Source: Liquorilactobacillus mali
GTDB taxonomy: Bacteria > Bacillota > Bacilli > Lactobacillales > Lactobacillaceae
NCBI RefSeq assembly: GCF_001437155.1
Contig: NZ_JQAR01000003.1
Coordinates: 1-64,000, forward strand
Length of the DNA: 64,000 nt
Reading direction: 5' to 3'
The stretch's first letter is position 1. Each line of letters starts with the position of its first letter. A program made the translations under genes and the position numbers. This document shows, piece after piece, positions 56,630 to 58,443 of this stretch. The notes under the pieces are model-generated. The model made no database searches. It saw nothing but the letters and a program-made list of their open reading frames with translations, and had not been told where the DNA came from.

Positions 56630-56680
56630 TTGTTAGTCGCTATAAGAGAAATTATGTTATGAGTTTTAAAAAATAAGAAA

Positions 56681-56716
56681 CTGAATCAGAAGTTAAATTT
56701 TGATTCAGCTTTTTTA
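56681..56716 (+). terminator. Terminator after uppP
   Basis: CTGAATCA (56681-56688) pairs with TGATTCAG (56701-56708), followed by CTTTTTTA. It is a smaller relative of the dispersed hairpin family (loop AGAAGTTAAATT). Confidence 0.75.
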
Positions 56717-56876
56717 TTATTTTCGGAAAATGATCGCAAAATTCTTGAATTAATCTAAAGTACTTAAATTTATAAGTAAGTTCTGGCCATTTTTCAGTTT
56801 AAACAAAAGTGATGAATTTTACTATAATAGCAAAAAAATATAAACTAGATAAGGTATAACAAGGAGGTACTTTATA

Positions 56877-58253
56877 ATTATTAAAAAAACAGAAATAAAT
56901 AAAGATGGCACTCACCGTTCATTAAGTAATCGTCATGTGCAGATGATCGCAATTGGTGGAACTATCGGTACCGGTCTATTTTTAGGGGCCGGGACTACTA
57001 TTTATAAAACAGGGCCTTCAGTTTTATGGATTTATTTAATTCTAGGACTTTTTTTCTTTCTCATGATGCGTGCTATTGGCGAAATGTTTTATTCTGATCC
57101 TTCACAACATACTTTTGTTGCATTTATCTCTCGTTATTTAGGAGATACGATTGGATGTTTTGCAGGTTGGACCTATTGGCTAGGTCTTATTTTCCTTTCA
57201 ACAGCCGAATTAACTGCTATAGGAACTTATGTGAAATACTGGTTCCCCGATTTTTCTGCATGGCTTATTGAATTAAGTTTCTTATTCATACTAGTTGTAA
57301 TTAATCTAGTTGCAGTTCGTTTATTTGGTGAAGCTGAATTTTGGTTTGCAATGATTAAGATTATTGCAATTGCCGCACTTATTGTCACTGGTATTTTTAT
57401 GATAATTACAAAAACAAAAACTCCTTTGGGCCATGCAAGTGTTAATAATATACTCACAGGTTATCAATTATTTCCAAAAGGAATTTTTAATTTTATTACT
57501 GCTTTTCCGATGGTTTTCTTTGCTTTTCAAGGAATAGAGTTTATCAGTATCACAATTGGTGAAGTTAAATCACCGCACTCCATAATTCGCAAAGCTGTTA
57601 ACGAAACTCTCATACGAATTCTCCTTTTTTACATAGGGTCTCTTGTAGTAATTATGTGCATCATTCCATGGCATGTACTGACTGCAGAAAAAAGTCCTTT
57701 TGTACAAGTTTATCGGCTAGCAGGAATTCCAGCGGCGGCAGCTATAATTAATTTTGTTGTTTTAACAGCAGCTGCCTCTGCTTTGAATAGCTCTATTTTT
57801 TCTGCTGGCCGCCATTTTTACCAATTAGCTCTTGAAACATCAGATCAAGATTGGTTAAAAAAAAGATTTGCTCACATTTCCAAAAATGGAGTTCCAACAA
57901 GAGCGATTATAGTTTCGGCCACATTGGTATTGATTGCACCTTTAATGAGCCTTTTGAAAGGAATTAACAAAGCTTTTACAATTGTTACTGGAGCTTCTAG
58001 TGACCTCTACATTATAGTTTACATTCTTATTTTATTTGCACATCGTAAGTATCGAATCTCTAATGACTTTTTATCAAATGGTTTCCTCATGCCAGCTTAT
58101 AAAATTACGAGTGTAGCCACTATTATTTTTTTTATTTTAGTTTTTATTAGTTTGTTCCTAATTCCTGCTGATATTCCAGGAGCAGTAGGAGCAATCATTT
58201 GGATAGTTGCTTTGTACAGTCTCATCTCAATAAGCAGGCATAAACAAATATAA
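56877..58253 (+). CDS. Amino-acid permease, APC superfamily (AAT/LysP-like), probable ATT start
   Basis: This permease of about 458 residues has twelve predicted membrane segments. The family signature QMIAIGGTIGTGLFLGAG follows an N-terminal RSLSNRHV. The first ATG/GTG-class codon in frame is GTG at 56937, which would cut off this conserved N-terminus and has no SD. The frame is open upstream to a TAA at 56850, with no ATG, GTG or TTG. AAGGAGG at 56861-56867 is nine bases before ATT at 56877, so initiation at ATT (or the next ATT) is inferred. The substrate is unknown; basic or neutral amino acids are typical. Confidence 0.82.
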   Translation: MIKKTEINKDGTHRSLSNRHVQMIAIGGTIGTGLFLGAGTTIYKTGPSVLWIYLILGLFFFLMMRAIGEMFYSDPSQHTFVAFISRYLGDTIGCFAGWTYWLGLIFLSTAELTAIGTYVKYWFPDFSAWLIELSFLFILVVINLVAVRLFGEAEFWFAMIKIIAIAALIVTGIFMIITKTKTPLGHASVNNILTGYQLFPKGIFNFITAFPMVFFAFQGIEFISITIGEVKSPHSIIRKAVNETLIRILLFYIGSLVVIMCIIPWHVLTAEKSPFVQVYRLAGIPAAAAIINFVVLTAAASALNSSIFSAGRHFYQLALETSDQDWLKKRFAHISKNGVPTRAIIVSATLVLIAPLMSLLKGINKAFTIVTGASSDLYIIVYILILFAHRKYRISNDFLSNGFLMPAYKITSVATIIFFILVFISLFLIPADIPGAVGAIIWIVALYSLISISRHKQI

Positions 58254-58358
58254 TTTAAATTGGCTATTCCAAGAAATAATAATTGTTTCAAAAATGTCCA
58301 AGTATTAATTCTACAAAATCTGTCATTGATAATAAGTTCTACTACTTTTAGCTCAACA

Positions 58359-58407
58359 CAAAATGCCTATTAAAAATATCAAAACGATATTTTTAATAGG
58401 CATTTTG
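58359..58407. terminator. Bidirectional terminator between permease and gltD
   Basis: A perfect 21-bp inverted repeat (58359-58379 and 58387-58407) with a seven-base loop lies between the convergent permease and gltD genes. The stem ends in AAAA on one side and TTTT on the other, suiting both directions. Confidence 0.9.
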
Positions 58408-58443
58408 CAATAACTTTTGTTTCACATGAAACCCATAATTTTT

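Follow-up and report, generated by a model that had tools for sequence, protein, structure and literature searches.

An amino-acid permease gene of Liquorilactobacillus that is likely translated from a conserved near-cognate start codon

Results

The permease locus and its start region

The window analysed here is a stretch of 64,000 nucleotides of Liquorilactobacillus mali. In this window, an amino-acid permease gene lies between uppP and gltD. Its reading frame opens behind an in-frame stop codon (TAA 56850-56852) and closes with a stop codon at 58251-58253. The features of the locus are as follows.

56681-56708, + strand: terminator-like hairpin after uppP, with 11 pairs (3 of them G-C) and a T-rich tail behind
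56800-56828, + strand: candidate permease promoter, TAAACA-17-TATAAT, 10/12 matches
56861-56868, + strand: Shine-Dalgarno (SD) sequence AAGGAGGT, contiguous 8-nt match to the anti-SD complement
56874-56876, + strand: ATA, candidate start, 6 nt after GGAGG
56877-56879, + strand: ATT, favoured start, 9 nt after GGAGG
56880-56882, + strand: ATT, unlikely start, 12 nt after GGAGG
56937-56945, + strand: GTG 56937 and ATG 56943, the first canonical in-frame codons, within a conserved N-terminal motif and without SD
56877-58253, + strand: amino-acid permease gene (AA_permease, PF00324), stop codon included, counted from the favoured start

The product matched PF00324 with 297.2 bits (E = 2.7e-88), which passes the gathering cut-off of 24.6, and its closest solved structure by sequence is the lysine-specific permease 9eyd (E = 5.3e-53). 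Among NCBIfam equivalogs, a D-serine/D-alanine/glycine transporter (NF008272) scored highest, at 393 bits against a curated cut-off of 732, so that this narrower assignment was not made.

From 56853, the codons of the frame are GGT ATA ACA AGG AGG TAC TTT ATA ATT ATT AAA AAA ACA GAA, followed by ATA AAT AAA GAT GGC ACT CAC CGT TCA TTA AGT AAT CGT CAT and then GTG (56937) CAG ATG (56943). Reading these codons bears out the first-pass annotation, which had reported no ATG, GTG or TTG between TAA 56850 and GTG 56937; the program-made listing of open reading frames begins the gene at this GTG. The same annotation had placed a strong SD, AAGGAGG (56861-56867), nine bases ahead of ATT 56877, and both the position and the spacing are correct. 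It named ATT 56877 alone. Behind the SD there are three in-frame near-cognate codons, and ATA 56874 and ATT 56880 are thus further candidates.

With regard to transcription, three terminator-like sites were found in the region versus 1.2 expected, whereas promoter-like sites as a class were not above chance there (10 found versus 9.2 expected). The segment TGATGAATTTTACTATAAT, which contains the -10 box of the candidate promoter, is identical in the three species compared below, but the -35 part is not. From the sequence, the permease probably has a transcript of its own, whose leader measures about 40 nt.

We also looked for structure in this leader. A weak AT-rich hairpin (window 56848-56876) could place the SD in its loop, and it was not significant against shuffles. 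In each of the three species, a weak hairpin can form with the SD in or near the loop (-5.7, -5.2, and -5.8 kcal/mol; z-scores -1.7, -0.7, and -0.6). The leaders of the other two species fold differently from that of the window, yet they also enclose the SD. A longer stretch of the window gave a fold z-score of -1.2, and the alignment fold was a different, very weak structure (-0.96 kcal/mol, one two-sided change). The single Rfam match was far below the gathering score and fell on the uppP terminator. An RNA switch in the leader is not claimed.

Orthologues in two sister species

Fourteen genomes of Liquorilactobacillus were compared, including that of the window. Among them, the permease was found at 87% amino acid identity in two other species (G011 and G005), in both of which it lies downstream of uppP with gltD further on. 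The orthologous clade consists of only three genomes, one per species. In a DNA search of 397 genomes of the family, 144 were matched; after the window's own genome the top matches were G011 (86%) and G005 (83%), and the others were at most 78% identical among the matches listed. In the plasmid records, there was no near DNA match to the permease, and none of 995 protein-level matches exceeded 80% identity.

Elsewhere in the genus, the gene order differs. In G002, about 110 nt separate uppP from gltD, and the permease is absent. In G006, uppP is 99.4% identical in DNA to that of the window, and neither the permease nor gltD occurs in the 9 kb read. The permease was absent from all seven uppP neighbourhoods read from other genus members. 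These gene orders mark the permease as an accessory gene inserted between uppP and gltD (window 56630-58440). In addition, GC3 is 0.23 for the permease versus 0.40 for uppP, a contrast which hints that the permease was acquired from elsewhere.

The first-pass annotation had proposed a comparison of start codons in orthologues, and this comparison showed that both sisters are near-cognate too. They read TTC ATA ATC GTT AAG where the window has TTT ATA ATT ATT AAA. Both have the same SD, and the SD match is 8-9 contiguous nt in each of the three species. Between the SD and ATG 56943, no canonical start occurs in either sister, and the window has GTG 56937 only. One point against a near-cognate start comes from G005, where an in-frame ATG is found 8 codons ahead of ATC and 7 ahead of ATA; it precedes the SD, and inspection by eye showed no SD belonging to it. 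The near-cognate state is therefore conserved across three species, all of one genus.

In all three species the reading frame is uninterrupted from end to end, with dS of 0.71-1.03 and dN/dS of 0.059-0.091. For codons 56883-56942, comparison of the window with the two sisters gave 8 and 11 synonymous changes (12.5 sites) against 0 and 1 non-synonymous changes (47.5 sites). This synonymous excess indicates that the codons ahead of the first canonical start are under protein-level selection. Furthermore, the codons ahead of 56943 carry the N-terminal motif common to full-length homologues, in agreement with the conserved N-terminal residues noted in the first pass.

These results bear on three other explanations. 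The best of them is initiation within the conserved domain, at GTG 56937 or ATG 56943, which would give a shortened permease. No canonical codon of the window's frame comes earlier than these two, and all three species share ATG 56943. However, codons 56883-56942 evolve as protein and hold the motif of full-length homologues, neither codon has an SD, GTG 56937 is GTA in both sisters, and the strong conserved SD would be left without use. Thus, we consider an internal start unlikely.

A recent loss of the start codon, a silent pseudogene or a wrong sequence at 56877-56882 is less probable still. The accessory nature of the gene, with its absence from the seven other uppP neighbourhoods, and the ATG seen at the aligned place in distant homologues would fit a loss. 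However, three assemblies lack a canonical start there despite dS of 0.7-1.0, and the frame is open in all of them with dN/dS of 0.06-0.09. The common lack of a canonical start together with the coding-type evolution of the following codons contradicts the recent loss that the first-pass annotation had offered as its alternative, and makes a sequencing error very unlikely. Least probable of all is that ribosomes arrive, through frameshifting or reinitiation, from a short frame upstream that runs from ATG 56812 to TAA 56857: short frames from the same ATG can be read by eye in the sister sequences, but their ends differ among the three species, ATG 56812 lacks an SD and precedes the likely -10 box, and the in-frame stop at 56850 blocks any earlier shift.

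Homologues and shared genes as controls

As a homologue control, we used the best 80 (51-73% identity) of at least 574 relatives. A canonical start was present near the aligned place in 79 of the 80, and the remaining one was partial. Of the canonical starts, 76 have an SD-like motif. Canonical starts were also present at all seven further homologue loci of the genus, at 17 of 17 loci read from the further DNA matches in the family (some of which are the same genes as among the 80), and in all six paralogues read from the window's own genome.

We then scanned the genes shared by the three genomes. The scan covered positions 1-144000 of the window's contig and 63 non-overlapping genes with 100 codons or more, a shared gene being one whose orthologues in the stretches taken from G011 and from G005 both exceed 60% identity. 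A gene was flagged when two or more genomes had ATA, ATT, ATC or CTG 4-12 nt behind an SD match of 6 nt or longer, and no canonical start bearing an SD stood ahead of it or within 3 codons. In these 144 kb, the permease alone was flagged (1/63); applied to infC, the same rule flagged 3/3. Of the other 62 shared genes, 5 also had an 8-nt SD match. The arrangement at the permease is more than chance, since it is kept in two further species and is the sole one flagged among 63 genes.

The start codon of infC in the genus

The infC gene encodes initiation factor IF3 and provides a comparison within the genus. In all 13 loci read, the start region consists of GGAGGTGA, two codons and then an invariant ATA, just upstream of the NEGIR motif. 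This ATA sits 9 nt after GGAGG, and none of the 13 loci has a canonical start at the SD. The codon preceding ATA is ATC in 4 loci and ACC in 9, a variation which speaks against that codon as the infC start. In addition, no suitably spaced SD precedes the ATG five codons past ATA. Thus, by these sequence features, infC of Liquorilactobacillus very probably starts at AUA.

In a fourteenth genome (G012), infC was matched as two pieces in different frames (G012:C15:80764-80972). This suggests a frameshift or a sequence error, and the gene was left out of the 13-locus count.

Which codon starts translation

Near-cognate initiation, as the first-pass annotation supposed, is well supported by conservation in the three species and the coding-type evolution downstream. 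Its choice of ATT as the exact codon is less secure. We regard ATT 56877 (ATC in the sisters) as a more probable start codon than ATA 56874. Its register is identical to that of the infC ATA. It is also the modal aligned start, with 20 of 79 homologues against 16 at the position of 56874 (gaps assumed absent). Among 25 genes, the SD spacing was 7-8 nt in 18, 6 nt in 2, and 9 nt in 1. Neither candidate has the usual spacing, a point against both, although 9 nt is closer to it than 6 nt.

ATA 56874 is a possible start with a clearly smaller chance. It is invariant across the three species and is also the infC codon, whereas 56877 varies between ATT and ATC. The third codon, ATT 56880, is an unlikely start because its spacing is 12 nt and it is GTT in the sisters.

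Discussion

To our knowledge, few bacterial genes rely on AUU, AUA or AUC starts. Pairing of these AUH codons with the initiator anticodon fails at the third base only. The evidence above makes it quite likely that the locus holds an intact permease whose translation from a near-cognate codon has been kept since the divergence of at least three species. It would be a further example of a rare, already known device. Searches of an open-licence literature collection turned up no paper on such a start in a Lactobacillaceae permease.

Several such genes have been described. In Staphylococcus aureus, near-cognate starts with extended SDs occur in infC (AUA), ccpN (AUA), and cvfC1 (AUU) (PMC13009471). 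The same study reports about 10% of the AUG output in poor medium for reporters of cvfC1, ccpN, and citZ, and up to 30% in rich medium for that of ccpN. Weak third-base pairs are rejected by IF3; one in vitro assay recorded a drop of AUU/CAU to 31.1% full-length product with IF3 at 1.5 uM (PMC10158994).

The permease resembles infC in having a near-cognate start behind an extended SD. However, infC encodes IF3 itself and is autoregulated (PMC13009471), while the permease is an accessory transporter with AUU/AUC, not AUA, as the favoured codon. The AUA start of S. aureus infC has been measured, as PMC13009471 reports, whereas that of the genus infC is predicted from sequence. Like cvfC1 and ccpN, the permease pairs a conserved near-cognate start with a strong extended SD. 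In those cases, according to the same paper, the products are a 61-aa protein and a transcription factor, and start use was measured, while the permease is a case read from DNA; the conservation of ccpN spans S. aureus to B. subtilis, and that of the permease start three species of one genus. An AUU start that limits expression is also named in the title of a paper on E. coli pcnB (Binns and Masters 2002, cited in PMC13009471), an unrelated gene in a distant host. The permease has the sequence features of the infC, ccpN and cvfC1 kind, namely no canonical 5' start, cross-species conservation and an extended SD. By analogy, we infer that it works like the S. aureus near-cognate genes.

In the proposed mechanism, the 8-nt SD match would position the 30S subunit, and the initiator fMet-tRNA would read the AUH codon despite the third-position mismatch. 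This mismatch would make initiation inefficient. Permease output would then be low and probably dependent on the IF3 level or growth state; codon use, low output and IF3 sensitivity are here deduced from the start region and the known systems. Control of the permease by IF3 is plausible by the same analogy. A more speculative and rather doubtful idea is that the tandem AUA-AUU/AUC is a regulatory start, in which the IF3 level sets amino-acid uptake and both codons are perhaps used.

For annotation, callers restricted to ATG, GTG and TTG miss such starts; here they move to GTG 56937, and the conserved N-terminus is lost. The near-cognate start probably serves to hold expression low. That a conserved case occurs on a transporter, and not on a translation factor or regulator, suggests a broader use of the device in Bacillota. 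If the tandem start is true, it would make nutrient import depend on how stringently translation is initiated, in a genus whose infC itself very probably begins with AUA.
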